Shown: in pieces, positions 1,682 to 22,736 of the stretch
Position numbering within the stretch: the stretch's first letter is position 1
How the letters are laid out: every line of letters starts with the position of its first letter
Assembly (NCBI RefSeq): GCF_900605005.1
Contig: NZ_LR027558.1
Span: 951,408-1,015,407, forward strand
Direction of reading: 5' to 3'
DNA: 64,000 nt
Source of the DNA: Acidipropionibacterium timonense
GTDB lineage: Bacteria; Actinomycetota; Actinomycetes; Propionibacteriales; Propionibacteriaceae
Translations under genes and position numbers: made by a program
The notes under the pieces: model-generated
Database searches by the model: none
Seen by the model: the letters and a program-made list of their open reading frames with translations, nothing else
What the model was told of the DNA's origin: nothing

Positions 1682-1828
1682 AGTGCCTCCCCTGTGTCAA
1701 GATCTGCGTGGCGTCGGCCAAGACAGTCGTGGGATGTCACTGGCGACTGGCAGACTCGTCCTGACGATACTTGACAGCACCGTGCCCTCTCACGAGCGGG
1801 CGACGGCCGCCAACGGATGGGAGGACCA

Positions 1829-6014: not shown

Positions 6015-7504
6015 CACGCCGCCCCGTCATGCCACAGTTTCGCGGTGTCGTTGATGGCACTGGACACTTCGACACCGGTCAGGTGCACTCCGACGGGGAT
6101 GCCGGGACGCCCGCCGACCTTGATGAGGAACTTGCCGCGGCCGGGCCGGGCCGGTTCATCCCCCGGCGCCAGGGCGGTCTGGTCCCAGGTGGGCGGATCG
6201 GTCCACGAGGTGAGCATGTCCTGCTCGATGCTGGACAGGGCGATAGCCCCGGTGAGTTTGTCCATCTCCTCGCGCGGCAGCCCGCCGGCCAGAACCATGC
6301 CGGACCGTTCAACGAATCCTTTGGCCTTGGCCCGGTCATCGTCGGTGGCCAACGCTTCCAGGTCGGCCATGGTGTGGGTGATCATCACCTGGCCCACCCC
6401 CATGTTCCGGTTGAGTCGGGTCAGCGCGTCGACCCGGTCGACCATGCCGGCACCGGCCCGCAGCACCTGCCACAACTCGTCCATGACAATGAGATGACGC
6501 TGCGGGCAGGCCAGCCCGGCGGCGGCCAAGGCTTGCGCGGTCTCGATGACCCCGAACCCGTAGGACCAGCAGGCCATGAGCACCGCACCCTTGATTTGAG
6601 CTGAGGCGGCCCCGATCGAGGACACGTCGAAGACCACCGACCGGTCCAGGCGCATCGGCTGGCTCGTCGGCCGGGCGAAAATCTGGCCCGACGTGCCGCC
6701 GGCCAGGGCCGTCAACGTGGCCTCCAGGTTCTCGGTGCGGTCGAGGTATCGACTCTGGTCGCCCCGATCCAACGCGGCCTGACGCACCGGGGGCGGCCCG
6801 GCACGCAGAATGTCGAGCACGTCGGCCAGGACGGGCGGCTGGTCGTGGCCGGTGTCCCAGTGATCCAGACAGCGGTCCAGGATCGTCGTCTCCCGGTCCG
6901 TCACATGCCCGCCGACCCCGCGGGTGATCTGCACCAGGGCGGCCAACACCGTGAGCCTGCGGGATCGGGCCTCGGCCAGCAAATCCCGGCCGGCCTGACC
7001 GCCGATCCGGCGGGCCGCGGCGATCGCCCCGCCATCATCGAGCGGATTGAGGCCGCCGCGTCCCGGGCCGATCGAGATGACCTGGCCACCCAACGCCTTG
7101 ACCAGGTCGACATAGTCGGGTTTGAGATCGCCCAGGACCACACCGTGAACCCCGTAGGCGGCCAAACCCAGCAGCATGTGCCGCACTGTCGACGACTTAC
7201 CCAGCCCGGGCAGCCCCAACACGAACGCCGACGGGTTCGAGATGAGACCGGCCCGCTGATACCAGCTCAGCGGGTCACAACACACCGTCGCCCCCGTGAA
7301 CAGGTGCCGGCCCATCGGCACCCCCACCATCGGGGTGCCCGAGCCGGCCACCCACGGCCACAACCCGCACACCTGAACTGACGTGCCCCGCCACGAGGGC
7401 GGGGTCTGCCAGCCCACCATGCGGCCCGCACCCGGCCCTGTCCAGCCCCGGGCACCCGGACGCGGCACCGTCGGGGCCGCCGCGGCCGTCCTGCGGGTCC
7501 TCAT
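6014..7504 (-). CDS. VirB4/TraC-like conjugation ATPase
   Basis: A 496-residue P-loop ATPase likely to power assembly of or transport through the mating channel. Walker A is GLPGLGKS (residues 97-104), and Walker B is LIVMDELW near residue 320, followed by a TRLNRNMGVG sensor-like region and an ITHTMADLE motif typical of VirB4/TraC proteins. It is shorter than classical VirB4 (about 800 residues): the N-terminal non-ATPase domain is nearly absent, and the SCO6880-type protein encoded just upstream may supply that part. ATG at 7504 overlaps the upstream stop (ATGA); an in-frame alternative lies nine bases earlier. Confidence 0.85.
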   Translation of the reverse strand: MRTRRTAAAAPTVPRPGARGWTGPGAGRMVGWQTPPSWRGTSVQVCGLWPWVAGSGTPMVGVPMGRHLFTGATVCCDPLSWYQRAGLISNPSAFVLGLPGLGKSSTVRHMLLGLAAYGVHGVVLGDLKPDYVDLVKALGGQVISIGPGRGGLNPLDDGGAIAAARRIGGQAGRDLLAEARSRRLTVLAALVQITRGVGGHVTDRETTILDRCLDHWDTGHDQPPVLADVLDILRAGPPPVRQAALDRGDQSRYLDRTENLEATLTALAGGTSGQIFARPTSQPMRLDRSVVFDVSSIGAASAQIKGAVLMACWSYGFGVIETAQALAAAGLACPQRHLIVMDELWQVLRAGAGMVDRVDALTRLNRNMGVGQVMITHTMADLEALATDDDRAKAKGFVERSGMVLAGGLPREEMDKLTGAIALSSIEQDMLTSWTDPPTWDQTALAPGDEPARPGRGKFLIKVGGRPGIPVGVHLTGVEVSSAINDTAKLWHDGAA

Positions 7505-9003
7505 GAAGCCCACCGGCGCAAGAATTCAGGCACATCCGAATGCGCCGACGGCACCAGGCCCACCGGCAACCCCATGGCGAACGCGGCCGCCTGCGACCCG
7601 TACACCCGGCGCAGCCGCACCCGCGACGCCGCACCCAACGACTCGACCGTCGCCACCAAATCCGGCATGTACACATCCGGGCTCGCCGTCGCCGTGACCA
7701 GCATGGCGAAGTCTTCCAGCCCGGCACCGGCGGCCTCCTCGGCCGCCGTCTTGATCGCCTCATCCCGGGCCCGTAACACGCGCGCCGACGGGTCGTGGGT
7801 CGACCGGGCCCGCACCAGCGCATGATTGACCCCGGCCTCGGCCACCGCCGCCGTGCGGGCAATATCGACCGGCCGATACAACACCGTCACCCTCTTGCGG
7901 GGCACCGCAGCATCCGGACCCAACAGCCGCGCCAGCGTCGCCGACCTCACGAGCCCCGACGGGGCCCGATTCATCTCCCACGTCACCGACAGCCCCGAGT
8001 CGTGCACGTAGTGGTCCCAGGATTCCACCGCAGACATCGGCCCAGCCTGCGCCCAATCCACCTCGACGTGCTGGCCTGCCACCGCCGCATCCTCGAACAG
8101 TGGGCCAGCCGCCGGATCATAGGCGGCCCGCACCATCTGAGCCAGCCGTGCCGCATCCACCGGCACCACCTGCCCGGCACCCGTGCCACCCAAACCCTGC
8201 GACAGGCCCGGCACCTTCGCCGCGATGTCCCGACACATCTCGTCGGCCTCCATACGCCGCCCGCCGCGGGTCGTCGCCGTCCACGTGACCGTCACCCACG
8301 CCCGAATCTGCGCCGACCCGACCGGCAACTCCGCCACAATGGCATCCATCATCTCCCGAGCAATCTGCGCCGACGACTCATCCACATGTGTCTCGACCTC
8401 ACGGCGCAACCGCCGGCCCGTGTCCGGAACCGTCTCCACACACACGCTGGCACCTACAATCGACGGGTCCTCACCCAACCCGGCCAGCCACTGACCCCAC
8501 CGGGCCACCTGCACATCAATCTGCGACGGGTCCACCAAGGACTCACCATCAGGCTGCGCAGCGAAAACCACCGCATAGTGCCGCACCGACGGCACCCGAA
8601 TAATCGCGAATGGCCGCCCATAGCCGTCCTGGGCCTCCAACAGCGTCGACGGCGCCAACACACCCGGCAACTGGCACGTACCCCACCGGGTCCGACCCAA
8701 CGCACCCGACCGGTACCCATGCGACCCAGACATCCGAGTCCTCCACCAGTTGATCCTGCCCATCGCCCGCTCTCCGATCGTGCGCCCATCGGCGTCCCGC
8801 ACCGAGATCGCCGCCACCACTGCCGCACCGGTCGCCGCCACCACCAGCGCCCCAACAATCCCGGCACGCCGCTGCACCAACACCGTCACCACCACCGTGC
8901 CCAACAACACACCCGTCGCCAACGACGAGAGCCCGGCAATACCCGTCGTGGACGGACGATGCCACCCGCCATAGGTCCTCGGCCGATACATCCCCTCAGA
9001 CAT
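7501..9003 (-). CDS. SCO6880-family conjugal transfer protein
   Basis: This 500-residue protein resembles SCO6880-type proteins of actinobacterial conjugative systems. After a short Tyr/Trp-rich N-terminus two closely spaced hydrophobic segments (about 22-70) form a hairpin anchor. A DADGRTIGER-type link follows, and then a long soluble domain ending in a repeat of Val/Ala-rich strands with EDFAMLVTATA. No ATPase motif is visible. It always sits directly before the VirB4-like ATPase in related elements and is inferred to be a membrane partner of it, comparable to the N-terminal part of larger VirB4 proteins. The start at 9003 lies eight bases inside the upstream gene and has GGGGGG upstream. 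Confidence 0.8.
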   Translation of the reverse strand: MSEGMYRPRTYGGWHRPSTTGIAGLSSLATGVLLGTVVVTVLVQRRAGIVGALVVAATGAAVVAAISVRDADGRTIGERAMGRINWWRTRMSGSHGYRSGALGRTRWGTCQLPGVLAPSTLLEAQDGYGRPFAIIRVPSVRHYAVVFAAQPDGESLVDPSQIDVQVARWGQWLAGLGEDPSIVGASVCVETVPDTGRRLRREVETHVDESSAQIAREMMDAIVAELPVGSAQIRAWVTVTWTATTRGGRRMEADEMCRDIAAKVPGLSQGLGGTGAGQVVPVDAARLAQMVRAAYDPAAGPLFEDAAVAGQHVEVDWAQAGPMSAVESWDHYVHDSGLSVTWEMNRAPSGLVRSATLARLLGPDAAVPRKRVTVLYRPVDIARTAAVAEAGVNHALVRARSTHDPSARVLRARDEAIKTAAEEAAGAGLEDFAMLVTATASPDVYMPDLVATVESLGAASRVRLRRVYGSQAAAFAMGLPVGLVPSAHSDVPEFLRRWAS

Positions 9004-10555
9004 CCAAAGCACCCCCCGACTCCCTCGACGCGGCATCCCTGACACGGCCCGCCACCTCAACGCCCTGACCGACCATCCGCATCGGCGACCGGCCCTCCGC
9101 CGCCGGTGCCGGTGCCGCACCGGCGGCCTCCGGGCCACCAGTTGGGCCCGGCACCGCCGAAGGGTCAGCACCCGAAGCCACCGACCCACCCGCAGATCCG
9201 GTGGGACCAGTCGGTCCAGCACCACTTGCCGCACCAAGCGACCCTGCCGGTACGGCGCCACTGGCAGTCCACGACGATCCAGCACCGCTGGCGCCCCCAG
9301 CCGATCCAGCCCCGCTGGCTGTTGCTGCCAGTGTGGCGCCACTGACTGAGCCGGCCGCTCCGGCGCCGCCAGGGGGTTCGGCTCCGGTGGCCTGTGCCGG
9401 GCCAGGTCCGTCGGCTCCGCCTGCGGCGCCCACCGGGCTGGCAGGGGTGGTCGAGTCTGTGGGTGCGGCAGTGCCGGTCCCTTCTGGCACGATGGTGGCC
9501 CCGTCGCTGTCGGCTGGCTGGCCGGTGCCTGTCGCAGCGGCGGCGCTGGTACTGGTGTGGCCGGTCGGGGCGGCCAGGGCGCCGGTGGCGGCCGTGCCGC
9601 CCTTGGCCGCTTTGGTTCCGGTGACGGCCGCTGAGGCTCCACCGGTCGAGGCCATGGCGGCCACTTGGATAGCCCCGGAGGCTGCGGCCCCAGCCGCCGC
9701 CATGGTGGCTCCGCCGGCGGCGGCCGCGCTGCTGGTCTCGGACGGCCCGACGGTCTTGACGAGGACAGGCAGCGCGACCAGGCCCAGGACGAGGACACAC
9801 AGGCCCATGACGAGTTGGTAGGTCGGTGAGGTCGAGGTGCCGCTCGTGCCGACGGCCCGGATGCCGATGGCGTAGATGATCGCCGCCACCGGTTTCCAGG
9901 CGAGGAACCCGATGATCCAGCCCAGCGACTCGTCCCACCACTGTCTGCCACGGGCTGTTGAGGACACGGCGGCCGCGAGCGGCCAGAGCACGACGAGCAC
10001 CATGAGCGCCGCCCCGCGCAGGAACATCAGGCCCATCTGCACCACCGAGATGAGCATGGCGATGATGCCGGTGCCGATCAGTGCCATGGCGCCGGCGGCT
10101 TGGCCCACCGATGCGACGTTGACCAAGGTCGAGGCGAACTTGTCGTTCTGCCCAGAGCTGGTGATGACCCAGGAGGAAAACTCGTCTCCGGCATCAATGA
10201 GCAGCTGGACGGCCACGATCCCGGCGCCGGACACGGCCACGGTACGCATGGCGGCTTTGAGGAGTTCACCCAAGGGTGCGCCGCGGCGGGTCCACACGGT
10301 TTGGGCGGCCGCGACCAGCACCGAGATCAGCAGCAGCGCCCCGACCCACGGGCCGACGAACCCTTGAGCCCAGGCGACCGGGCCCGAGGCGGCCCGCAGC
10401 GCCGGACTGGGCAGTTTCACCCATCCGGCGCCCAAGTCCACCAGGAACGTGTTGGCGGCCTGCGCCACCGAGTGCGCCATGGCGTCCAGGCCGTCCGAAA
10501 TGCTGCCCTGGACGAACTCGGCGACCTGACACTTCGGGTCCCAAAAATTGCACAT
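8996..10555 (-). CDS. VirB6/TrbL-like polytopic membrane protein
   Basis: A 519-residue inner-membrane channel component candidate. Residues 1-60 include an amphipathic region. About six hydrophobic segments follow between residues 65 and 270, with the conserved WWDESLGWIIGFLAWKP loop. The last 245 residues are a low-complexity tail of Ala, Gly, Ser, Thr and Pro with few charges. VirB6/TrbL proteins form part of the translocation pore and often have a long variable C-terminus. Its ATG lies nine bases after the stop of the upstream anchored protein. The tail is also repetitive at the DNA level (9200-9360), suggesting slippage-driven length change. Confidence 0.82.
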   Translation of the reverse strand: MCNFWDPKCQVAEFVQGSISDGLDAMAHSVAQAANTFLVDLGAGWVKLPSPALRAASGPVAWAQGFVGPWVGALLLISVLVAAAQTVWTRRGAPLGELLKAAMRTVAVSGAGIVAVQLLIDAGDEFSSWVITSSGQNDKFASTLVNVASVGQAAGAMALIGTGIIAMLISVVQMGLMFLRGAALMVLVVLWPLAAAVSSTARGRQWWDESLGWIIGFLAWKPVAAIIYAIGIRAVGTSGTSTSPTYQLVMGLCVLVLGLVALPVLVKTVGPSETSSAAAAGGATMAAAGAAASGAIQVAAMASTGGASAAVTGTKAAKGGTAATGALAAPTGHTSTSAAAATGTGQPADSDGATIVPEGTGTAAPTDSTTPASPVGAAGGADGPGPAQATGAEPPGGAGAAGSVSGATLAATASGAGSAGGASGAGSSWTASGAVPAGSLGAASGAGPTGPTGSAGGSVASGADPSAVPGPTGGPEAAGAAPAPAAEGRSPMRMVGQGVEVAGRVRDAASRESGGALDV

Positions 10556-10564
10556 GCTCGCCTA

Positions 10565-11257
10565 TCAGGGTTGCCAGCTGATGAATCCGGCCGCCGACAG
10601 ATCATTGACATGGGTGACCGGTGACGTGTTGGTCGGTGGGGCGACCACACCCCAGTCGTCCCGGGGCGCCGACCAGCGCACAGCCATGGGCCAGGCCGCG
10701 GTCACCCCGTCGAGCTGGAACGCCAGGGTCACCTGGTACTGGTCGGCGTCGACCCGGCTGATCTGGAAGCCCACGATCTGGGTGGCCGGCTGGGCCTGCT
10801 TGTCGGCGGCTGCGGCAATGATCCGCTCGGCGTCGGCGTTCGGGTACAGCAGTTGCTTCAGGGCAGCGTTACCGGCCGGCTCGTTCCAGGCCAGGAAGTT
10901 CGCGGCCGCCAGCAGGGCGCCGGTCGGAGAGTGCGCGAAACAGTGTGACACACCGCCCACGCGGGCCGGGCCCACCCCGTCGATCGAGGGCACCGACACC
11001 CCGTGCCCCACATCGATCCGGGCCGTCAACGGCCCACTCGTCGGGACCCTCTGGTCCCCGGCCGGCACCCCGCAAGCCCCCGTACGGGTCGAGGCTGAGG
11101 CTGCCGGGGCGGATGCCGTCGTGCCCGCCGCGGCGCCCGGCGCCGCCTTGTCATGCTGCTCGGCCAGCGACCAGAGCGCCATGACGGCCGCGGCGGCCAC
11201 AATGGCCACCCCGACCCACCCGGCACGACGCCACCGCCGCCACGTCGGCGAGCTCAT
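10565..11257 (-). CDS. Membrane-anchored transfer protein, VirB8-like layout
   Basis: A 230-residue protein with a basic N-terminus ([14 protein letters not shown]), one transmembrane helix (about 15-32), an Ala/Ser-rich linker and an extracellular domain of about 150 residues. The domain contains PTGALLAAANFLA, then two amphipathic strands and a terminal W-x-V strand. The size and topology match VirB8/TcpC-like proteins, which scaffold the mating channel through an NTF2-like fold, but I cannot confirm that fold by eye. ATG at 11257 overlaps the upstream stop (ATGA), placing it firmly within the operon. Confidence 0.7.
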   Translation of the reverse strand: MSSPTWRRWRRAGWVGVAIVAAAAVMALWSLAEQHDKAAPGAAAGTTASAPAASASTRTGACGVPAGDQRVPTSGPLTARIDVGHGVSVPSIDGVGPARVGGVSHCFAHSPTGALLAAANFLAWNEPAGNAALKQLLYPNADAERIIAAAADKQAQPATQIVGFQISRVDADQYQVTLAFQLDGVTAAWPMAVRWSAPRDDWGVVAPPTNTSPVTHVNDLSAAGFISWQP

Positions 11258-11535
11258 CCGATCATCCAGTTGACGAGTTGGACGGCTGCCCCGACCAGGA
11301 CACACGCGAACATGACCCAGCCCAGCCCACCGGCGGCCTCCTCGCCCTGGCCGCGGTGATGCTGGATCGCCATCCGGCCAGCCACGAGGATCACCCCGAG
11401 CACGCACAGGATCGTGACGATCCCGGCACCCCAGTTGAGGAACTGGTGAAACTTCTCCATGCCCGGCGGCATCGTCGGGGTAATCGGCGCCACCTTGAGC
11501 GGCAGGAGGGTCAGGGTCGACAGGGCACTCATCAT
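11254..11535 (-). CDS. Small two-helix membrane protein, VirB2/TrbC-like
   Basis: A 93-residue protein with two hydrophobic helices (about 34-53 and 69-90) separated by a short charged loop (HHRGQGEE). Small proteins of this layout lie beside VirB6/VirB4 homologues in conjugation loci and resemble VirB2/TrbC pilins, although in Gram-positive systems no long pilus is made. There is no obvious cleavable signal peptide. The start at 11535 overlaps the DUF6668 stop (ATGA). Alternatively it is a membrane chaperone of the channel. Confidence 0.65.
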   Translation of the reverse strand: MMSALSTLTLLPLKVAPITPTMPPGMEKFHQFLNWGAGIVTILCVLGVILVAGRMAIQHHRGQGEEAAGGLGWVMFACVLVGAAVQLVNWMIG

Positions 11536-12709: not shown

Positions 12710-13837
12710 TCACGCCGCCACCCCCGAGGCCGTGCACGCCACAATGGTCGCCAGCCAGCGGGCCACCTGCGGGTCGGACTCGACCCTCTCACCAGCCCGA
12801 AGCCGCAACAGCACCGAGCGGGCCGGACCGCCCCGACGGGTACCCACCAGCAAACTCATCCAGGCGCTCGCCGCATCCGGACTCAACCCGAGCCCGGCCA
12901 GCCGGGCATCCCGGCGTGCCGCAGTGTGCCGGGCCGCCGCGTGATGATCGGCGGCCAGCTGGGCACACCGGCACGTCCCGGCCCACGCCAACGACTCGGC
13001 GACACCGGCCCCACACAACACCTGCACCAGACGCCGGTAGCCGACCGACGACGACGCCATGAGATCCTCTAGGCTCACCTGCACCGGTCCACTCGACTGC
13101 TCCCACGGCGCCGGCCCCGATGGGTCCTCCGGGCAGTCGAGGACCTCCCGGCGTGCCGCATCCTGCTCGTCGGCGGCCGCGACCTGCCGGGCTGCCGCCG
13201 TCACCGCATACCCCCACGGATTCGCCGCCGCCGCCACCTGACCCGGCTGCTGGCGCATGACCAGCCACAACGCTGTGGCCAGATCGGCCACCGTCTCGGC
13301 GGTCGTGGCGTGACCGGCCCGACGGCGCGCCACCCACGCCGCCCGCGTCGACGCGGTCGCCATGATCGCCGCCGGCAACCCCGCCGCCTCCTCACAATCC
13401 CAGCCGTCGGCCGCCACCGCCCGCAACACCGCACGCAGCCCGGCACCAGTCAACACATCACCCGACCCGCCAGCCAACACCACCTGCCCTCCGGCCCGCC
13501 CCCGCCGCTGCGACCCCGACACCACAGCCGGGGCCCCACCCTCGGACTCTACGGCGGGTCGCAGCGCCATGAATCGGCGTCCCAGACGCCAACACGTCGC
13601 CCCCTGACGGTTCCCCATCCGCCGGGCCTGCCGCTCCAGCCAGCCGTCCTGACACAACCGGGCCACCGTGCGCCCCACACTGGCCGTCGACGACCTGGCC
13701 ATCGACGCCAACGTAGGCCGCGACGCCACCGCCACCCCCGTCTCATCAGCCAACAACGCCACCGACGCCAACACCATGCGCGCCGCCATGTCCGGCACAT
13801 CGGCCCGCCACGCCCACGCCACCATCGCCTCCGTCAC
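12710..13837 (-). CDS. Winged-helix DNA-binding protein, plasmid replication-type
   Basis: A 375-residue protein whose N-terminal about 80 residues form a winged helix: an RMVLASVALLADETG helix, a PTLASMARSSTASVGRTVAR helix-turn-helix and a wing ending in GWLERQ. The layout matches another protein of the element at 20701-21879, so the two are probable paralogues. The middle is Ala-rich, and ANPWGYAVTAAARQ resembles conserved C-terminal helices of actinobacterial plasmid replication or regulatory proteins. The GTG start at 13837 overlaps the upstream stop (GTGA). It may be a replication/partition or transcription factor of the element; which one is not decidable here. Confidence 0.65.
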   Translation of the reverse strand: MTEAMVAWAWRADVPDMAARMVLASVALLADETGVAVASRPTLASMARSSTASVGRTVARLCQDGWLERQARRMGNRQGATCWRLGRRFMALRPAVESEGGAPAVVSGSQRRGRAGGQVVLAGGSGDVLTGAGLRAVLRAVAADGWDCEEAAGLPAAIMATASTRAAWVARRRAGHATTAETVADLATALWLVMRQQPGQVAAAANPWGYAVTAAARQVAAADEQDAARREVLDCPEDPSGPAPWEQSSGPVQVSLEDLMASSSVGYRRLVQVLCGAGVAESLAWAGTCRCAQLAADHHAAARHTAARRDARLAGLGLSPDAASAWMSLLVGTRRGGPARSVLLRLRAGERVESDPQVARWLATIVACTASGVAA

Positions 13838-14004
13838 CGCACACCCCCGACCAGGCAGCCGATCAGCACCACGCCAGCGCCACCCAAACCCGCCCCAGCC
13901 GCCACCGGCAACGACACCTGCGGCCACCGACGCGCCAGCCAGCCACCGGCGGCCAGCACCACGTCGACCCCCACCAGCAGGACCACCACAGCCGTCACGC
14001 TCAC
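13834..14004 (-). CDS. Small membrane protein
   Basis: A 56-residue protein with two hydrophobic helices (about 3-21 and 32-52) and a short basic loop (RRWPQ). The GTG start at 14004 overlaps the sortase stop (GTGA), and its stop overlaps the next gene the same way, so it is co-translated with the sortase. No homology is recognised. A role alongside the sortase or in membrane anchoring is possible but unproven. Confidence 0.55.
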   Translation of the reverse strand: MSVTAVVVLLVGVDVVLAAGGWLARRWPQVSLPVAAGAGLGGAGVVLIGCLVGGVR

Positions 14005-14663
14005 CTCACACCCTCCTGCTGACCGAGGGCGGTAGCGGTGACGATGAGGTTCTGAGACCACACCCGGTGCCCATCGGCGTCCACAGCCCGCCCCGCACAC
14101 GTCACCAACACCAAACGCCGGGCCCCCTCACGAGTGCGCCACACCCAGCCCGGAAGCCGGTCACGGGCCACCTGCTCCACATCAGTCACCACGAACCGGG
14201 ACCTGGCCGACCCGTCCACCAGCTCGACCAGATTGCCGGGCACCACCTGGTGCAGCCGCGCCAGCACACCAGGGCTCTGACCCACCCACACATGCCCAGC
14301 CAACGTGGTCGTGCCCGACGACGACCCCAACGGGGCCGACTGGCCCGCCCGACCCAACGAGTCCTCCGGCGGCCACCACGCCGCACCCTTCAACACCAAC
14401 GCCCCGGCCACATCAGCCCGGATACCCGCCGCCGGCACCAGCACCTGCCAGCCAGCAGACCTGGCTGCACCCGAAGGGGCCGCCGTCGGCCCCACCAGCG
14501 ACGGATGAGGATCATGGGCCGTGCGCGCCGCCGGAACCTCCAACACCCCGTCCACGCGCACCAACCCCGCCGGCACATGCCGCACACCCGCCCACACCAG
14601 GACCGCGCCACACACCGCCACAGCCACGAACGCCCACACCAGCCAGCCCGGCCGACGCATCAT
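14001..14663 (-). CDS. Class E/F-type sortase
   Basis: A 220-residue membrane-anchored sortase. An N-terminal transmembrane helix (about 8-28) is followed by the catalytic beta-barrel with all three expected residues: His124 in TTTLAGHVW, Cys189 in LVLVTCAG and Arg200 in GHRVWSQNL. Sortases attach proteins with LPxTG- or LAxTG-like signals to peptidoglycan. The large surface protein encoded just upstream ends with IHTGD, a hydrophobic helix and RRRRS, so it is the likely dedicated substrate. ATG at 14663 follows GGAGGGG; a TTG start three bases earlier is the alternative. A strong hairpin at 14708 separates the two genes, so each may have its own promoter. Confidence 0.85.
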   Translation of the reverse strand: MMRRPGWLVWAFVAVAVCGAVLVWAGVRHVPAGLVRVDGVLEVPAARTAHDPHPSLVGPTAAPSGAARSAGWQVLVPAAGIRADVAGALVLKGAAWWPPEDSLGRAGQSAPLGSSSGTTTLAGHVWVGQSPGVLARLHQVVPGNLVELVDGSARSRFVVTDVEQVARDRLPGWVWRTREGARRLVLVTCAGRAVDADGHRVWSQNLIVTATALGQQEGVR

Positions 14664-14707
14664 CAACCCCTCCTCGTCAAGTCGTTGTCAACTCGTTGAA
14701 CACGGTG

Positions 14708-14748
14708 CGGGCGGCGCAGTCCGTCTAGGCAAAAGACCGCGCCGCCCG
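14708..14748. terminator. Strong GC-rich hairpin upstream of the sortase gene
   Basis: CGGGCGGCGC pairs perfectly with GCGCCGCCCG, extended inward by GTC/GAC, around a loop containing an A-run. It sits in the 178-bp gap between the surface-protein stop and the sortase start, and would end transcripts of the upstream gene or limit read-through into the sortase operon. Confidence 0.6.
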
Positions 14749-14800
14749 CCCGATTCCCACGGCATGGTTGTGAAAGGAGGATCGCCGCAGGAGCCCGGCC

Positions 14801-14823
14801 CGGGCGGGTTTCCACGCCGCCCG
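14801..14823 (-). terminator. Hairpin just after the surface-protein gene
   Basis: CGGGCGG pairs with CCGCCCG around a nine-base loop, 19 bases downstream of the minus-strand stop at 14842. Together with the hairpin at 14708 it makes a double terminator after the surface-protein gene. Confidence 0.55.
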
Positions 14824-14841
14824 AGCCCGTCTGTCACGCCG

Positions 14842-17325
14842 TCACGAACGACGACGACGCACCGCCCACGTGCCACCGAGCACACCGACGGCCACCACGG
14901 CGATACCTGCCCCAGTCAGGCCCGCAGCCCCACCAGGAACATCACCGGTGTGAATCCCGCCACCCGACGCGGCAGCATGACCACCCGACGGAGCCGGCCG
15001 AGACACCGACACCATCTGAGCCGCATCAGCCAGATCGGTGTGCGACGCCACCTGGTTACCGCCAGCAGTCACCGTCTCGAACGCCACCAGCTCCTTGCCG
15101 GCATAGCCGGACGGGACCGTGAACGACACGTCCACCGTGCCGGACGTCGTGTCCGGGGTGAACTGGGCAGACCCCTTGATCCCGGTCGACTTACCCGTGG
15201 CCTTGTCCATGAGGACACCCGAGACCCGGTACTCGACACCCGGCTGAAGACCCTCGTAGCGGACCGTGTCAACGACCGTGCCACCCGTCGGCGCCAGCGT
15301 GTGGTCCTTATCGGTCTTGTCGACCGCGGTCGTACCAACCTTCGGGACCCACACGGTCTGGCTGTGATCGGACAAGTCCTTGTGCTCGGCCACGATCTTC
15401 ACACCATCGGTGAGCGTCTCGAACGCCACCAGCGCCTTGCCGGCATAGCCCGACGGGACCGTGAACGACACCTGGACCGTACCGGTCGAGGCAGTCGGGG
15501 TGAACTGGGCCGACCCCGTGATCCCGGTCGGCTTCCCGCTCACCTGATCGACCAGCTCACCGGAGACCGTGTACTGCCGGCCCGGCTGAAGACCCTCATA
15601 GCGGACCGTGTCCACCACTGTGCCGCCCGCAGCCAGAATCATGTGATCCCCATCAGCCTGATCGGTGGCCGTCGTCCCAATCGTCGACTGCCAGATCGTC
15701 TGATCCGAATCCTTGAGGTCCTTGTGCTCGACGATGACCTTGCCGTTCTTCGAGACCGTCTCGAACGCCACAAACTGCCCGCCAGCCGTACCGGCCGGCA
15801 CCTGGAACGTCACATCCACCGTCCCCGACGAAGCCGTCGACGTGAACTGCGCCGTCCCAGTGATCCCTGTCGACTTACCCGTGACCCGATCCATGAACAC
15901 ACCCGACACCTGGTAGGTGCCAGGCTCCAGACCCTCATACCTCACCGTGTCAACAACCGTGCCACCCTTGATCGAAATCGTGTGGTCTCCGTCGGTCTTG
16001 TCGACCGCGGTCGTGCCGACCTTCGGGACCCACACGGTCTGGCTGTGATCGGACAGGTCCTTGTGCTCGGCGACGATCTTGACACCATCGGTGACCGTCT
16101 CGAACGCCACGAGCTCGTGGCCCGCGTAACCGGACGGGACCGTGAACGACACCTGGACCGTGCCCGACGAAGCCGTCGGGGTGAACGTGGCAGTGCCCGT
16201 CACGCCCGTCGCCTTGCCCGTCGTCTGATCCACCAACTCGCCGGACACCCGATACTGCGTGCCCACCGTCAGATCGTGATAGGCGACCGTGTCAACGATC
16301 GTCCCGCCCGCAGCCACGAGCATGTGATCCCCGTCAGCCTTGTCCACCGCCGTCGTCCCAATCGACGGCGTCACCGTCGGCGTAGGCGTCGGAGTCGGGG
16401 TCGGCGTAGGCGTCGGAGTCGGGGTCGGCGTAGGCGTCGGAGTCGGGGTAGGTGTTGCTGGGACGGTCGCGCTGTCACTGGCGGTGAGCGTCTGCGACTG
16501 ACCGACCACGAGAATCCGCTGTGCCGCGCTATTGGACGGCTTGAGGAAGTTGACCGTCGTCAGCGGCGTGCTCACCGTAGCGGTGACCCTCGCCGGCTGG
16601 TCGAGCGTGCCGAACGAGGCCGTGGCGGTGCCGTCCATTCCGGTTCGCACCGTCGCGGACTGGCCGCGACCATCCTTGATGGTGACGTCCATGCCGTCCA
16701 CGGGCTTACCGGCACCGTTGACCAGCTTCACAGTCGCCTTGTACCCGCTGTTCAAAGCGACTTCGGCGGGAATATCGACCGTAAGCTTGTACGTGCCCGT
16801 GGATGCTCGTCGCTTCGCGATCGTCACCATCTGCTGGGCCAGGCTCGTCACCCCGGCAGCGTTTGCGCGTTCGAGACCGTAGCCGCTCGTGAGCTGGTAA
16901 TTGGGGTAACCCTGAATCGCATACACGGCTGCGTCGACCGCCGCCGCGGTCGTGTTGCTCGTGGTCGAACCCCACGTTCCTAGAATCCACGCGAGCTGGG
17001 CGATCGTCGAGGGCGACAACGCTGTGCTGTCATCGCGCGACCACGTGCCCGTGTTGCCCTGCGACGCGTACGTACCGCCCGCAGAAGCACCTTCACGATC
17101 AGGATCAGCGCAGTAGAACTGGCCCGTCCCGCCACGCGTGGTGTTGTTGAGACGGTACGAGCCGACCCAGCCATCACCGACCGACGTCTTCACGCCGACG
17201 TAGTGGGTCGTCGTCCCATTCCACGTGTACGTGTCGGCGTGCGCAGTCGATGGCACAGCCACCGCCATAGCCACCGACACCAAGGCCACAGCACCCGCCG
17301 ATAGCCTCATTCTTGCTGACCGCAT
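14842..17325 (-). CDS. Thioester/VaFE-repeat surface-anchored protein
   Basis: An 827-residue cell-wall protein. A signal peptide (MRSARMRLSAG... cleaved near AHA-DT, residue 29) precedes an N-terminal domain resembling TQxA thioester adhesin domains, with QFYCADPD and later AAVYAIQGY as the likely Cys and Gln of the internal thioester. A Thr-Pro repeat stalk follows (about 288-318), then four modules of about 114 residues, each with a VaFE signature (LVAFETV, FVAFETV, LVAFETL, LVAFETV), which usually carry isopeptide bonds. The C-terminus has IHTGD, a hydrophobic helix and RRRRS, a sorting signal suited to the adjacent sortase. GAAGGGA precedes ATG 17325. A role in attachment to hosts or mating partners is inferred. 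Confidence 0.88.
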   Translation of the reverse strand: MRSARMRLSAGAVALVSVAMAVAVPSTAHADTYTWNGTTTHYVGVKTSVGDGWVGSYRLNNTTRGGTGQFYCADPDREGASAGGTYASQGNTGTWSRDDSTALSPSTIAQLAWILGTWGSTTSNTTAAAVDAAVYAIQGYPNYQLTSGYGLERANAAGVTSLAQQMVTIAKRRASTGTYKLTVDIPAEVALNSGYKATVKLVNGAGKPVDGMDVTIKDGRGQSATVRTGMDGTATASFGTLDQPARVTATVSTPLTTVNFLKPSNSAAQRILVVGQSQTLTASDSATVPATPTPTPTPTPTPTPTPTPTPTPTPTPTVTPSIGTTAVDKADGDHMLVAAGGTIVDTVAYHDLTVGTQYRVSGELVDQTTGKATGVTGTATFTPTASSGTVQVSFTVPSGYAGHELVAFETVTDGVKIVAEHKDLSDHSQTVWVPKVGTTAVDKTDGDHTISIKGGTVVDTVRYEGLEPGTYQVSGVFMDRVTGKSTGITGTAQFTSTASSGTVDVTFQVPAGTAGGQFVAFETVSKNGKVIVEHKDLKDSDQTIWQSTIGTTATDQADGDHMILAAGGTVVDTVRYEGLQPGRQYTVSGELVDQVSGKPTGITGSAQFTPTASTGTVQVSFTVPSGYAGKALVAFETLTDGVKIVAEHKDLSDHSQTVWVPKVGTTAVDKTDKDHTLAPTGGTVVDTVRYEGLQPGVEYRVSGVLMDKATGKSTGIKGSAQFTPDTTSGTVDVSFTVPSGYAGKELVAFETVTAGGNQVASHTDLADAAQMVSVSRPAPSGGHAAASGGGIHTGDVPGGAAGLTGAGIAVVAVGVLGGTWAVRRRRS
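16379..16450. repeat. Three perfect 24-bp repeats encoding the Thr-Pro stalk
   Basis: The unit beginning GGCGTAGGCGTCGGAGTC occurs three times back to back (16379, 16403, 16427). Each unit encodes four Thr-Pro pairs on the minus strand, so copy number can change stalk length in steps of eight residues without a frameshift. Confidence 0.85.
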
Positions 17326-17371
17326 GAGTTTCCCTTCTGATCTACGAGATGGAAATGGAATTGGAGTCCGC

Positions 17372-18520
17372 TCACGCCTTGATGACGATGCGGGGGTTCT
17401 GGGCCGGGTCGAGCCAGCGGAGGGTGGCGTCGAGTTCGGAGTGGGAGTTGATGGCCACGCAGCCGCCGGTGTAGCTGGTGGCGTAGTGCAGGAAGATTCC
17501 GGCACCTGAGCCGGCGCCGTACCGGATGGGGGACGAATAGTTGTACGACAGGACCACGGCTTGCCGGTAAAGGGAGCCGGCATAGTCGGCCAGATGCTCG
17601 TTGGCAGACGTGGACAGGTGCGAGCAATCCTCGCGCCACCGGTTGTAATCAGCCTGGTGGGGGTCTTCGATCCACCACGAGCACGACCCGATCGTCCGGT
17701 ACGACAGCTTGGTGCCCGGGTTACCCACACCGAACGCTGAGATGACACTGAACGTGCCGGCTGGCGTGGTGTTCGTGCCTTGCCGGCGAGCCGAGGCGTC
17801 CACGACGCCACCGGAGCCGAAGACCGATCCGACACCCGACGCCGACACCTTGACCCAGCCCTTGCTGGCACCCTGCCACTGGTAGCGAGCCCAGGTGCCG
17901 TGAGTACCCGAGGTCCGGTCAGCAACCATGACCTGCTGGGACACATCAGCCGAGACCGAGGTACCCGGAGCAAACCGCGACACCCGAACCGACGCCGACG
18001 GTGTCGAGACCGCAGCCGTGTACACCCGCAGGTAATGGGACGCGACCCACGCAGGCTTCGACCGATACGACACCGGAGTCCAGCCGTTGACCGACGCGCC
18101 ACGAACCCCCACATGGGCGCCACGCGCCAACACGCCTCGTTTCGAGCACGACGTCGATGCGCACGAGCGCACATTGACCGCCGTCGTGGCCGCCACCAGG
18201 CCACTGGAGGGCAACGACGCCGACGTCGTCGACCCGGCGCGCAGGTAGCGCGACGCAACCCAGGCAGCCCGACCCCGGTACGACACCGGGGTCTACCCGG
18301 AACGCGACACACCACGCACCGCCACATGCCCGCCTCTGGGCAACAGACCGAGCCTTGCACACGACGTCGACGCGCACGAGCGCACGTTGACCGCCGTCGT
18401 CGCATACACCAGACCCGACGACGGCATCGCCGACGCCGTCGACGCCCCAATGGCCGGAATCGTGGCAGCACCCGCCGCCACAGCGGCCACCGCGGCCGCT
18501 ACACGCCTAGACACGAACAT
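17372..18520 (-). pseudogene. SH3-domain L,D-transpeptidase, copy A, amber-interrupted
   Basis: The frame starts with ATG at 18520 after GGAAGGA and encodes a signal peptide (to about residue 31), two bacterial SH3 repeats with VNVRSCASTSC, and a YkuD-type L,D-transpeptidase domain ending HYATSYTGGCVAI with catalytic Cys. A TAG at 18293-18295 interrupts the first SH3 repeat exactly where the second repeat has Trp (NGWTPVSY versus RSG-stop-TPVSY), so one G-to-A change from TGG explains it. The frame is otherwise open for 382 codons. The product would be a 75-residue exported fragment unless read through. Its end, RIVIKA, differs from the other two copies. Confidence 0.8.
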
Positions 18521-20319
18521 GACAATCCTTCCAATCAACCAGTGATGACGATGCGGGGGTTCTGGGCCGGGTCGAGCCAGCGGAGGGTGGCGTCGAGTTC
18601 GGAGTGGGAGTTGATGGCCACGCAGCCGCCGGTGTAGCTGGTGGCGTAGTGCAGGAAGATTCCGGCACCTGAGCCGGCGCCGTACCGGATGGGGGACGAA
18701 TAGTTGTACGACAGGACCACGGCTTGCCGGTAAAGGGAGCCGGCATAGTCGGCCAGATGCTCGTTGGCAGACGTGGACAGGTGCGAGCAATCCTCGCGCC
18801 ACCGGTTGTAATCAGCCTGGTGGGGGTCTTCGATCCACCACGAGCACGACCCGATCGTCCGGTACGACAGCTTGGTGCCCGGGTTACCCACACCGAACGC
18901 TGAGATGACACTGAACGTGCCGGCTGGCGTGGTGTTCGTGCCTTGCCGGCGAGCCGAGGCGTCCACGACGCCACCGGAGCCGAAGACCGATCCGACACCC
19001 GACGCCGACACCTTGACCCAGCCCTTGCTGGCACCCTGCCACTGGTAGCGAGCCCAGGTGCCGTGAGTACCCGAGGTCCGGTCAGCAACCATGACCTGCT
19101 GGGACACATCAGCCGAGACCGAGGTACCCGGAGCAAACCGCGACACCCGAACCGACGCCGACGGTGTCGAGACCGCAGCCGTGTACACCCGCAGGTAATG
19201 GGACGCGACCCACGCAGGCTTCGACCGATACGACACCGGAGTCCAGCCGTTGACCGACGCGCCACGAACCCCCACATGGGCGCCACGCGCCAACACGCCT
19301 CGTTTCGAGCACGACGTCGATGCGCACGAGCGCACATTGACCGCCGTCGTGGCCGCCACCAGGCCACTGGAGGGCAACGACGCCGACGTCGTCGACCCGG
19401 CGCGCAGGTAGCGCGACGCAACCCAGGCAGCCCGACCCCGGTACGACACCGGGGTCTACCCGGAACGCGACACACCACGCACCGCCACATGCCCGCCTCT
19501 GGGCAACAGACCGAGCCTTGCACACGACGTCGACGCGCACGAGCGCACGTTGACCGCCGTCGTCGCATACACCAGACCCGACGACGGCATCGCCGACGCC
19601 GTCGACGCCCCAATGGCCGGAATCGTGGCAGCACCCGCCGCCACAGCGGCCACCGCGGCCGCTACACGCCTAGACACGAACATGACAATCCTTCCAATCA
19701 ACCAGTGATGACGATGCGGGGGTTCTGGGCCGGGTCGAGCCAGCGGAGGGTGGCGTCGAGTTCGGAGTGGGAGTTGATGGCCACGCAGCCGCCGGTGTAG
19801 CTGGTGGCGTAGTGCAGGAAGATTCCGGCACCTGAGCCGGCGCCGTACCGGATGGGGGACGAATAGTTGTACGACAGGACCACGGCTTGCCGGTAAAGGG
19901 AGCCGGCATAGTCGGCCAGATGCTCGTTGGCAGACGTGGACAGGTGCGAGCAATCCTCGCGCCACCGGTTGTAATCAGCCTGGTGGGGGTCTTCGATCCA
20001 CCACGAGCACGACCCGATCGTCCGGTACGACAGCTTGGTGCCCGGGTTACCCACACCGAACGCTGAGATGACACTGAACGTGCCGGCTGGCGTGGTGTTC
20101 GTGCCTTGCCGGCGAGCCGAGGCGTCCACGACGCCACCGGAGCCGAAGACCGATCCGACACCCGACGCCGACACCTTGACCCAGCCCTTGCTGGCACCCT
20201 GCCACTGGTAGCGAGCCCAGGTGCCGTGAGTACCCGAGGTCCGGTCAGCAACCATGACCTGCTGGGACACATCAGCCGAGACCGAGGTACCCGGAGCAAA
20301 CCGCGACACCCGAACCGAC
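17380..20319. repeat. Tandem 1,163-bp duplication plus a third partial copy
   Basis: Unit 1 (17380-18542) and unit 2 (18543-19705) read identically over 1,163 bp, and unit 3 (19706 to about 20319) shares the first 614 bp before diverging. The marker GATGACGATG recurs at 17381, 18544 and 19707. Each unit carries an L,D-transpeptidase domain; units 1 and 2 also carry the two SH3-like domains and signal peptide. The period is not a multiple of three, so the copies are separate genes rather than a longer fusion. Confidence 0.9.
18535..19683 (-). pseudogene. SH3-domain L,D-transpeptidase, copy B, amber-interrupted
   Basis: This copy matches copy A across 1,163 bp, including the amber codon (TAG at 19456-19458). 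It has the same signal peptide, two SH3 repeats and YkuD domain, but ends RIVITG like the lipoprotein copy at 19698. That makes B a chimera: the 5' part of A joined to the 3' end of the lipoprotein gene, as expected from unequal crossing-over inside the shared catalytic region. Its stop lies 14 bases before the copy A start, within A's ribosome-binding region. Confidence 0.8.
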
Positions 20320-20687
20320 CGCTTCGTGGCAGGCGCCCGGGTCGCCGTCGCTGAGGCTCTCCGGGTCGTGGTCGACGAGGTAACCCGGCGCGGGCTGGCC
20401 GCCGCCGTGCCACGGCCCACACTCGCCCGGGACGTCGCGCTGGCCGTCGCGGTGGCGGTGCTGCGGGTCGTCGGCCGCGGCGATGAGGCCGAGGAGACCG
20501 GTGACGACGACACCGGCGGGCGCCCGCTCGGCGTCGACGCGACCGTCGGAATCCGTGAGGCCGTCGCAAAGGACGCCGAGGTCGTGGGCGACGGTGACGC
20601 CGGCACACCAGCCGACGATCCGCCAGCACCACACCCGGCCACCACCACCGAGGCAGCGGCTACTACTACAGACAACTTTCGAGTCAC
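19698..20687 (-). CDS. L,D-transpeptidase lipoprotein
   Basis: A 329-residue lipoprotein. GTG at 20687 follows AGGAGG, and the N-terminus MTRKLSVVVA leads to a lipobox VAGC with Cys19. Residues 20-125 are a Ser/Thr/Ala-rich linker. The remainder is the same YkuD L,D-transpeptidase domain as in the two downstream broken copies, including HYATSYTGGCVAI with the catalytic His and Cys. Such enzymes form 3-3 peptide cross-links or attach proteins to peptidoglycan outside the membrane. In a conjugative element it could remodel the wall at the mating channel. It is the only intact copy and the first of the three in transcription order. Confidence 0.85.
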   Translation of the reverse strand: MTRKLSVVVAAASVVVAGCGAGGSSAGVPASPSPTTSASFATASRIPTVASTPSGRPPVSSSPVSSASSPRPTTRSTATATASATSRASVGRGTAAASPRRVTSSTTTRRASATATRAPATKRSVRVSRFAPGTSVSADVSQQVMVADRTSGTHGTWARYQWQGASKGWVKVSASGVGSVFGSGGVVDASARRQGTNTTPAGTFSVISAFGVGNPGTKLSYRTIGSCSWWIEDPHQADYNRWREDCSHLSTSANEHLADYAGSLYRQAVVLSYNYSSPIRYGAGSGAGIFLHYATSYTGGCVAINSHSELDATLRWLDPAQNPRIVITG

Positions 20688-20700
20688 AACATCCTCCTGA

Positions 20701-21879
20701 TCAGGCTCGACGACCGGAAGACGACGCTGTACGCAGCGATGCTTTCGCTGCGGCCAGCAACTCCCGGTGCCGCATGGCGGCCTGCTCATCATGACGCCAC
20801 GACTGGGCGGCGGCGAACGCGTCTCGGGCTCGACGCTCGGCGGCCGTGAGCGTCGGTGGGGTCGGGGTCGGTCGGCCTGTGGCGGGGTCTGCGACCGGGG
20901 GATGCTCCAGCGGCAACCCCCGCAGCCGGGAACACACCAGCCCGGCCATCGAGTGGACCCGTGGCGGCAGCTCGTTCGCGGCCAGGGTGTCCCGCACCTG
21001 ACGTGGCCGCCACCCGCCGGCCACCAGGGCCTCCAACAGCGGAGCGACCCGGGCGGCGCCCGCCTCGTCCAGAACCTGCATCGCCTCGGGCAGACACGCC
21101 CGGACCAGCCTCCACGTCTCGGCCGTCACGGCGCCCGACCCCTCAGGGCTGCCCGTGCCCCCAGCCTCGACAACCGGGCCACCATCGCCCCGCTCGTCGT
21201 CCGCCGGGTCGTCGGCCTCGACCGGTCCGTCGTGGGTCAGATCGTCGGTCACCTCGGCCTCGACCTGACCTGACCCGGCCCGACCAGAGCCGGCGTCGCC
21301 CACGACGCGGCTCGCCGTCGACGGGAAGGGTCGGGTTAGGTCTGGTTCAGGTGATGGTTCTTCCTTATGAGGGGGTGTGGGGGAGTGTGTCACCAGTGTC
21401 ACAGGGGGGGTGTCACCAGTGTCACAGTGGTCAGCCACTGCGCCACCAGTGACACAGTGCCCTCCACGAGGGGATTCACCGTCGACCACGATGGGGGAGT
21501 CCACCACTGTGCCATCCATGTCACAGTGCACTCGACTAGGGGTTTCACGTTCCACGCCCGGACGGGATGATGCGGGGACACGACGGCGCGACACACTGTC
21601 AGGCACGAGCAGATGCCACACCGCCTGAACCCGACGCAGACCACCATCAGCGGCGATCTCATAGCCCTCACGTCGCTCGACCAGCCCAAGCTCAGCCAGC
21701 CCATCCAAGGCCCGGAACACGGTGCGACGCGACGACGACGCCATGTCCGCGAGCGTGTCCACCCGCGGCCACGCCACATCATTCTCGTCAGCGAAGTTCG
21801 CCAACGCGACCAACACCAGCTTGTGCGTCGCATTGGCCACCGGCGCCTGCAACGCCCAGTTCACCGCCCAAATACTCAC
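20701..21879 (-). CDS. HTH_36-type winged-helix protein, replication-initiator-like
   Basis: A 392-residue protein starting at GTG 21879. Residues 1-75 form a winged helix typical of plasmid and phage replication proteins (KLVLVALANFADENDVAWPR, SSRRTVFRALDGLAELGLVERR). A long acidic, Pro/Ser/Thr-rich middle (about 100-260) follows, then a helical C-terminal region (about 270-340) with PPRVHSMAGLVCSRL. The middle coincides with a cluster of short direct repeats at the DNA level (21388-21528), reminiscent of origins lying inside initiator genes such as phage lambda O. It resembles the element's other winged-helix protein at 12710. It could instead be a transcription factor. Confidence 0.65.
   Translation of the reverse strand: MSIWAVNWALQAPVANATHKLVLVALANFADENDVAWPRVDTLADMASSSRRTVFRALDGLAELGLVERREGYEIAADGGLRRVQAVWHLLVPDSVSRRRVPASSRPGVERETPSRVHCDMDGTVVDSPIVVDGESPRGGHCVTGGAVADHCDTGDTPPVTLVTHSPTPPHKEEPSPEPDLTRPFPSTASRVVGDAGSGRAGSGQVEAEVTDDLTHDGPVEADDPADDERGDGGPVVEAGGTGSPEGSGAVTAETWRLVRACLPEAMQVLDEAGAARVAPLLEALVAGGWRPRQVRDTLAANELPPRVHSMAGLVCSRLRGLPLEHPPVADPATGRPTPTPPTLTAAERRARDAFAAAQSWRHDEQAAMRHRELLAAAKASLRTASSSGRRA
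21388..21528. repeat. Iteron-like repeats inside the winged-helix gene
   Basis: TGTCACCAGTGTCACAG occurs perfectly at 21388 and 21411, 23 bp apart, close to two helical turns. Diverged copies follow at 21441 (CGCCACCAGTGACACAG) and 21512 (CCATCCATGTCACAGTG), with related CACTGTG half-sites between them. The reading frame passes through them. The spacing and motif conservation look like protein-binding iterons rather than a protein-level repeat. Confidence 0.5.
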
Positions 21880-22299: not shown

Positions 22300-22349
22300 G
22301 GCATTTCTATGACTTGTGCAGTTTCGTGGCGAGTGTTAGCCTATGTCGC

Positions 22350-22703
22350 ATGAGCAAGAAACTTGAAGCTTTGCGAGCGTCAGGTACGATCCAGTCCTAC
22401 AGTGCTGACGAGGCGGTCGGCATCGTGGTGAACCAGCTCATGTTCGTGCAACGGATCAGTAGGCGGTCCCTCGGTGACGTACTGGGCATCACAGGGCCTG
22501 CCGCGGGCATGAAGCTCCGCGGTGACATCGGATGGTCGCTTGATGACTTGTCGAGGGTGTCGCGCTATTTCGGACTCTCGGTTGCTGACCTTGTGCCGGA
22601 GTACGTCGGGGGCCCCGCACCTGAGCCTGGTTACGTGCCGGCTCCGGTGACTCCCGAGATGGTGGGGCGTGCGGGGCTCGAACCCGCGACCCAGGGATTA
22701 TGA
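22350..22703 (+). CDS. Repressor-like regulator whose C-terminus is encoded within the tRNA gene
   Basis: A 117-residue protein starting MSKKLEALRASG at the second in-frame ATG. Residues about 20-80 look like an XRE-type helix-turn-helix (AVGIVVNQLMFVQRISRRSLGDVLGI...LDDLSRVSRYFGLSVADLVP). The last residues, GRAGLEPATQGL, are encoded by the antisense strand of the tRNA 3' end. This ending is a recognisable signature of integrative elements whose terminal gene reads into attB. In the circular element the tail would differ. It probably controls the divergent excisionase-like gene through the dyad at 22287. Confidence 0.7.
   Translation: MSKKLEALRASGTIQSYSADEAVGIVVNQLMFVQRISRRSLGDVLGITGPAAGMKLRGDIGWSLDDLSRVSRYFGLSVADLVPEYVGGPAPEPGYVPAPVTPEMVGRAGLEPATQGL
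22660..22703. other. Probable attachment-site core in the tRNA 3' end
   Basis: The element's terminal gene extends to 22703 inside the tRNA. The tRNA 3' half from T-loop to CCA is the usual recombination core for tyrosine integrases. The exact crossover cannot be fixed because the other junction is outside the window. Confidence 0.5.
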
Positions 22704-22736
22704 GTCCCCTGCTCTGACCTGCTGAGCTAACGCCCC
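22660..22736 (-). tRNA. tRNA with CAU anticodon (Met or Ile2)
   Basis: A 77-nt cloverleaf including an encoded CCA. The acceptor stem GGGGCGT pairs with ACGCCCC, the anticodon loop is CTCATAA (CAT) and the T-loop is GGTTCGAGC. With a CAU anticodon it could be elongator tRNA-Met or the lysidine-modified tRNA-Ile; there is no sign that it is initiator tRNA. The 3' end faces the conjugative element and overlaps its last gene antisense. Confidence 0.93.

Follow-up and report, generated by a model that had tools for sequence, protein, structure and literature searches.

The closest described counterparts of the locus reported here are surface adhesins encoded in Gram-positive conjugative elements. 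TIE of pLS20 (Bacillus) is a long multidomain surface protein in which a class II thioester domain, with Cys68 and Gln256, is carried on a stalk of Ig-like domains, and it has neither a sortase signal nor a sortase; 99.6% of its relatives are found in Firmicutes (PMC8092201). PrgB, the aggregation substance of pCF10, is a wall-anchored mating adhesin of the sortase type with a polymer adhesin domain and an LPXTG anchor (PMC12857230, PMC8092201). Here we describe a candidate actinobacterial counterpart in a 64,000-nucleotide stretch of Acidipropionibacterium timonense DNA (the window; contig C1 951408-1015407 of a 2.8-Mb genome), where a VaFE-repeat surface protein, a class F-like sortase, and an L,D-transpeptidase (LDT), together termed the trio, are encoded on an integrative conjugative element (ICE). 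Judged from its sequence, this module stands about an even chance of being the surface-attachment set of the ICE, with the VaFE protein as a wall-anchored mating-pair adhesin. An earlier note on this DNA had presented such a set as a departure from the Gram-positive norm of pili and aggregation substances, a claim that falls because wall-anchored mating adhesins are already known (PMC12857230, PMC8092201). The principle is known from PrgB and pLS20 TIE; what is new is an actinobacterial version with its own sortase. Our literature search returned no report of an actinobacterial mating adhesin with a dedicated sortase and LDT.

One end of the ICE, which spans 40.4 kb and is complete by gene content, lies inside the window; its transfer is only predicted. 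Exact direct repeats of 39 bp mark the two ends (window 22660-22698 and C1:933669-933707). The repeat is the last 39 bases of a tRNA-Met gene and has a single further copy genome-wide. The far repeat is adjoined by a tyrosine integrase gene (PF00589, E 6e-22) outside the window, as is a 1447-amino-acid open frame with TrwC/MobF relaxase and helicase domains (MobF NF041492, E 1.5e-74). The placement of the set in a conjugation locus is thus borne out by genes for TraG/VirD4, VirB4-like, SCO6880-family, and TrbC-like proteins within the window and by the MobF/TrwC relaxase and integrase beyond it. The module occupies the minus strand at the tRNA end, in the order HTH_36 (helix-turn-helix, HTH) gene, lipoprotein LDT, two SH3-LDT genes, VaFE protein, and sortase. 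The boundaries given by the earlier note, 14001-20687, coincide exactly with the stop of the sortase gene and the start of the first LDT gene, and the genes they enclose all lie on the minus strand (Table 1).

The VaFE protein comprises an N-terminal domain, an Ig-like domain with weak matches to MG4/Big_1, a PT-repeat linker, four PF18202 repeats (E 7e-115, 4 copies; NF033903, E 3.5e-117), and a sorting end, GGIHTGDVPGG, followed by a hydrophobic stretch and RRRRS. The reading of this gene as a VaFE-repeat protein with an IHTGD sorting end is therefore correct on both counts. Its partner, proposed to be a class E/F sortase, belongs to the sortase family (PF04203); class F (NF033748) is only its best NCBIfam match (E 5e-14), at 52 bits against a cut-off of 166. 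The host genome encodes two other sortases elsewhere, and a pattern search of nine Cutibacterium genomes found TGDVPGG as a C-terminal tail only in the VaFE protein family, all other matches not being C-terminal. Together, these observations fit a dedicated sortase-substrate pair, and the sortase presumably anchors the VaFE protein. Like TIE, the window protein is long and multidomain, with a single key Cys in its N-terminal domain and Ig-like stalk architecture; unlike TIE, it has a sortase signal, its own sortase, a T-Q ester stalk, no detectable thioester domain, and an actinobacterial host. It shares with PrgB the plan of an element-encoded, sortase-type wall-anchored adhesin, whereas no domain homologous to those of PrgB was recognized in it.

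We examined the N-terminal domain for the Cys-Gln thioester that had been proposed for it. C72 is the only cysteine among the 827 residues, a notable feature in a secreted protein, and is present in 7/7 aligned relatives. The surrounding motif, YCAD, conforms to the rule [YFL]C-hydrophobic-hydrophilic from the literature (PMC8092201). A reactive bond at C72, either Cys-Gln or another internal one that would couple covalently to amines on the partner cell, draws some encouragement from this motif, from a Cys-then-two-helices order that resembles thioester domains in a MAFFT alignment, and from Q110, which is kept in 6/7 relatives. We nevertheless consider it improbable. No thioester model (PF08341 or other) matched the N-terminus of the window protein or of three relatives at E<=5, while the canonical VaFE N-terminal domains of Microbacterium and Buchananella matched PF08341 at E 5e-9 and 8e-12, and profile-profile comparison with five canonical thioester domains returned nothing. 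In the MAFFT alignment, the YC motifs are in register and the canonical TQxA[IV]W is set against VDAAVY, so that the Gln position holds Asp in six of the seven relatives (Asp131 in the window protein) and Arg in one; a second, shorter alignment places the gaps around this region differently. No Gln is invariant among the seven. AlphaFold2 models of the domain from 2- and 5-row alignments were poor (mean pLDDT 49 and 48), and a Foldseek search with the second gave no significant match, the model being too poor for this to carry meaning. Sequence comparison with solved structures yielded a weak LppS match only (E 0.04). A Cys-Gln thioester in the VaFE protein is thus not supported by these sequence comparisons.

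The L,D-transpeptidases of the locus fare unevenly. The lipoprotein LDT is intact, with a YkuD match just over the gathering score, and both SH3-LDT copies are broken by a TAG at codon 76, a position that is Trp in the second SH3 repeat and in the relative from genome G003. Three active LDTs can accordingly be rejected; only the lipoprotein LDT would be functional, barring read-through. The two SH3-LDT copies form a head-to-tail tandem with a 1,163-nucleotide unit, differ from each other by only 6 bases at the 3' end, and share about 627 identical nucleotides with the neighboring lipoprotein LDT gene. The tandem duplication (17367-19692) either arose by recent unequal recombination or is an artefact of assembly. 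Among the element open reading frames (ORFs) scanned, which did not include every small one, no further family acting on peptidoglycan was matched.

Relatives of the trio occur on other mobile DNA. On the Cutibacterium acnes linear plasmid p11-79, the trio lies directly upstream of TcpC (PF12642), VirB4-like, NlpC/P60, and FtsK genes, which make up a Tcp-type system. This locus, type II-specific in p09-9/p11-79 (PMC5696575), holds the same three gene families beside transfer genes and differs in being on a linear plasmid with a Tcp-like type IV secretion system (T4SS), Tad pili, and one LDT, compared with an ICE of the SCO6880/TraG kind. The p11-79 sortase, annotated as class F, is 46% identical to that of the window and its LDT lipoprotein 64% (about 87% in the catalytic part); the VaFE protein ends in GGVQTGDVPGG. 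The window transfer proteins found no match on p11-79. In a proteomic study, mass spectrometry detected two products of this locus, the PT-repeat surface protein and the LDT, in secreted and surface-sheared fractions; that study named the sortase SrtE-family and did not link the PT-repeat protein and sortase to mating (PMC5696575). The plasmid pTP-CU411, a resistance plasmid reported to be transferable (PMC9119108), carries in its transfer region a VaFE protein whose N-terminus has diverged (24%) and a sortase (49%); an LDT was not found there with the same profiles. On the same plasmid (L101 19143-26521, AP025555.1), the erm(X) transposon Tn5432 sits inside the VaFE gene, with the IHTGD end and sortase gene on its far side.

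Two further relatives adjoin tRNA-Met sequences. In genome G003, the HTH_36, VaFE (1046-amino-acid frame), sortase, lipoprotein LDT, and SH3-LDT genes are all open and lie in an 8.82-kb islet between 33-bp repeats of a tRNA-Met 3' end (L102 14965-14997, L103 3885-3917). In C. avidum, HTH, HTH_36, and truncated VaFE genes lie beside a tRNA-Met gene. The HTH_36 protein has relatives of 37-39% identity in these two genomes (tblastn). It was also considered as the counterpart of the CopG regulator upstream of the p11-79 trio, which we rejected, the proteins being unrelated. A viral origin of the module genes was likewise rejected, as they have no relatives in viral contigs. The identical nonsense codon in the two SH3-LDT copies, the truncated VaFE gene in C. 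avidum, and the Tn5432-split gene on pTP-CU411 could be taken to mean that the module is a decaying passenger on its way out of this strain. We regard this as very improbable, given that the VaFE protein, sortase, and lipoprotein LDT are full length here, in G003, and on p11-79, and that two of the p11-79 proteins are made (PMC5696575).

Searched alone, the N-terminal domain was found in 11/296 Streptomyces genomes. SCO6880 is present in 10 of these 11 versus 133/296 overall (hypergeometric P 0.002, ignoring shared ancestry). In six (G588, G340, G623, G812, G801, G778), the genes for the domain protein and SCO6880 are divergent and 10.7-15.2 kb apart, accompanied by VirB6-like genes and, where the region extends far enough, VirB4-like genes. 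Having 6/8 Streptomyces domain proteins within 20 kb (<=20 kb) of SCO6880 corresponds to P ~3e-13 under random placement, again ignoring shared ancestry. No T4SS gene was seen in the fetched DNA around the domain protein in the other two (G867, G798), and three further domain proteins lie at contig ends. Where complete, the Streptomyces proteins have a SpaA-type stalk and an LAHTG anchor. Regions L214-L217 and L233-L242 hold such Streptomyces proteins with the lone-Cys tip, divergent from SCO6880/VirB4/TraG loci. Within Propionibacteriaceae, the G183 domain protein adjoins an integrase related to that of the window's element (same family, E 2e-52), and a TrbL/VirB6 gene lies at the end of their contig. 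Two genomes of the same order (G333, G373) encode domain relatives without the Cys, and the fetched 20 kb around them contained no T4SS gene.

By these alignments and searches, the tip domain is the part that follows T4SS genes in actinobacteria, while the stalk, anchor, sortase, and LDT vary. This tracking favors an attachment role serving transfer, like those of PrgB and pLS20 TIE, over a skin-specific role. We also raise, as a tentative and rather unlikely proposal, that the domain defines an actinobacterial family of conjugation-linked tips with a lone reactive Cys and no Gln partner, in which elements trade stalks (of the T-Q ester or SpaA type) and anchors ([IV][HQ]TGD with a sortase of its own, or LAHTG), and in which attachment to the partner would proceed by chemistry or contact other than a Cys-Gln thioester. 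The literature search turned up no description of a lone-Cys tip domain that is not a thioester domain and is linked to SCO6880 loci.

VaFE proteins occur near transfer genes more widely. Across the genome collection, VirB4- or TraG-type ORFs were present in the fetched flanks of 19/78 VaFE loci, and all ten VirB4 candidates tested (10/10) belong to the VirB4 family. In Firmicutes and Coriobacteria, VaFE genes near VirB4/TraG genes accompany CD1110-family VirB4 T4SSs; they differ from the window in that some carry TQxAIW thioester motifs and in that no class F-like sortase or window-family LDT was found in the fetched flanks. Individual loci from these groups (L080 3835-14021, L022 4384-11644, L064 2-11254) show VaFE genes within or directly beside VirB4/TraG runs; proteins of this kind seem to be a frequent component of conjugative elements in Gram-positive bacteria. 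In Nanchangia anserum (L075 4948-12947), a VaFE protein with an LAKTG end adjoins window-related HTH proteins and wall peptidase genes (NlpC/P60-like by eye), which suggests another conjugative element.

Several results weigh against a role of the module in mating-pair attachment. The earlier note had proposed surveying SCO6880-type transfer genes for the trio, and of 60 SCO6880 regions from other actinobacteria, each 11-20 kb long, none (0/60) had the VaFE repeat, class F-like sortase, or LDT of the window kind, nor did any have the N-terminal domain (0/60). The same profiles recovered the known trio cases used as positive controls, and the trio as a general companion of SCO6880 genes is rejected. 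For the Streptomyces loci, random placement is excluded; shared ancestry of one locus type is possible, and these cases are not independent. No relaxase like that of the window was found near the Streptomyces adhesins in the fetched DNA. The HL096PA1 plasmid shares its T4SS with p11-79, and the same profiles found no trio on it; C. modestum plasmids, with this T4SS as well, have no VaFE protein or sortase, and an LDT fragment is present in the plasmid examined. The G003 islet contains neither an integrase nor T4SS genes between its repeats; intact as it is, the module may therefore act without a T4SS in cis. This islet is possibly a satellite or a deletion remnant of an ICE.

The pattern across p11-79, pTP-CU411, the plasmids without the module, G003, and C. 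avidum marks the module as an accessory one that passes between elements whose transfer systems differ. In the main rival explanation, the adhesin system serves to bind hosts or surfaces: it rides mobile elements, improves attachment to skin or tissue, and has no direct part in DNA transfer. The intact stand-alone islet of G003 without transfer genes and the decayed one of C. avidum agree with this account, as do the absence of the module from some C. acnes plasmids and the presence on the same plasmids of Tad pili, discussed as host adhesion factors (PMC5696575). It is harder to reconcile with the N-terminal domain tracking T4SS loci in Streptomyces, typically soil bacteria for which skin is irrelevant, and with the module lying beside two unrelated T4SS types, that of the window element and the Tcp-like system of p11-79. 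We consider colonization a serious but less likely explanation. Co-occurrence with transfer genes in related elements was found for the p11-79 trio and, near SCO6880 in Streptomyces, for the N-terminal domain. The mating-pair attachment proposed in the earlier note thus retains the set's place inside a complete conjugative element and its recurrence on other mobile DNA, and loses the covalent thioester.

For mating-pair attachment, we infer anchoring by the element's sortase, adhesion, the partner, the transfer role, and the LDT role as follows. The VaFE protein would be exported and then fixed covalently to the donor wall at IHTGD by the element's class F-like sortase. Its ester-cross-linked repeats would serve as a rigid stalk, extending the N-terminal domain outward, and this domain, with its single conserved Cys, would bind a partner surface, most likely that of neighboring bacterial cells. 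Binding could then stabilize mating pairs for the SCO6880/TraG-type transfer machine. With the lowest confidence of all, we suggest that the lipoprotein LDT acts on peptidoglycan at the membrane-wall face, remodeling it or renewing its cross-links at the site of adhesin attachment or channel passage, and may protect or re-link the wall where the protein or channel is inserted. With an element-borne sortase, display would not depend on which sortases the host has, a likely advantage for an element that moves from host to host.

Outside the window, the interval between the repeats encodes ParA-like proteins, a GmrSD C-terminal domain protein, an ArdC N-terminal domain protein, and a Mutator transposase. 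Within the window (548-2971), the element also carries divergent genes for an MTaX1-domain protein and a C5 cytosine methylase, possibly a restriction-modification or self-marking pair. By visual comparison, C. avidum has an ORF similar to the small HTH regulator-like ORF (22314..22703) at the same element end.

Table 1. Features of the adhesin module, transfer genes, and attachment site in window coordinates.
Feature	Position	Strand	Evidence or remark
TraG/VirD4 coupling protein	4254..6017	-	PF12696 E 1.2e-30
VirB4-like transfer ATPase	6014..7513	-	profile matches
SCO6880-family transfer protein	7501..9027	-	NF042935 E 1.4e-148
VirB6/TrbL-like membrane protein	8996..10555	-	no direct Pfam match; own profile finds TrbL (PF04610) protein in G183
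TrbC/VirB2-like small membrane protein	11254..11535	-	PF04956 E 0.006, below cut-off
Second HTH protein, between adhesin module and transfer genes	12710..13927	-	weak HTH matches only
Class F-like sortase, presumed VaFE-dedicated	14001..14663	-	PF04203 E 5.5e-12; NF033748
VaFE/T-Q ester repeat surface protein, 827 amino acids	14842..17325	-	signal peptide (by eye), four T-Q ester repeats, IHTGD sorting end
IHTGD sorting motif	14941..14955	-	residue 791
N-terminal domain, residues 31-185	16770..17235	-	common to proteins near T4SS genes in Streptomyces and G183 (alignments, searches)
SH3-LDT copy 1	17372..18520	-	SH3_3 and YkuD; TAG at 18293-18295 (codon 76)
SH3-LDT copy 2	18535..19683	-	in-frame TAG at 19456-19458 (codon 76)
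Intact LDT lipoprotein	19698..20687	-	GTG start, VAGC lipobox by eye; PF03734 E 5e-5, 24.3 bits vs gathering 23.4
HTH_36 protein, first module gene	20701..21879	-	PF13730 E 1.6e-8
Small helix-turn-helix regulator-like ORF, element end	22314..22703	+	ORF and visual comparison only
Attachment-site repeat, 39 bp, 3' end of tRNA-Met	22660..22698	.	exact direct repeat
tRNA-Met (CAT), integration target	22660..22736	-	ARAGORN and Rfam

How Gram-positive donors hold their recipients is understood for few systems, mostly in Firmicutes. The tip domain, which tracks transfer genes in Cutibacterium and Streptomyces, is a specific actinobacterial candidate for a mating-pair factor, and one that can be deleted. 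Adhesin, sortase, and LDT together make up a self-contained set that need not rely on the wall-anchoring enzymes of a new host after transfer.

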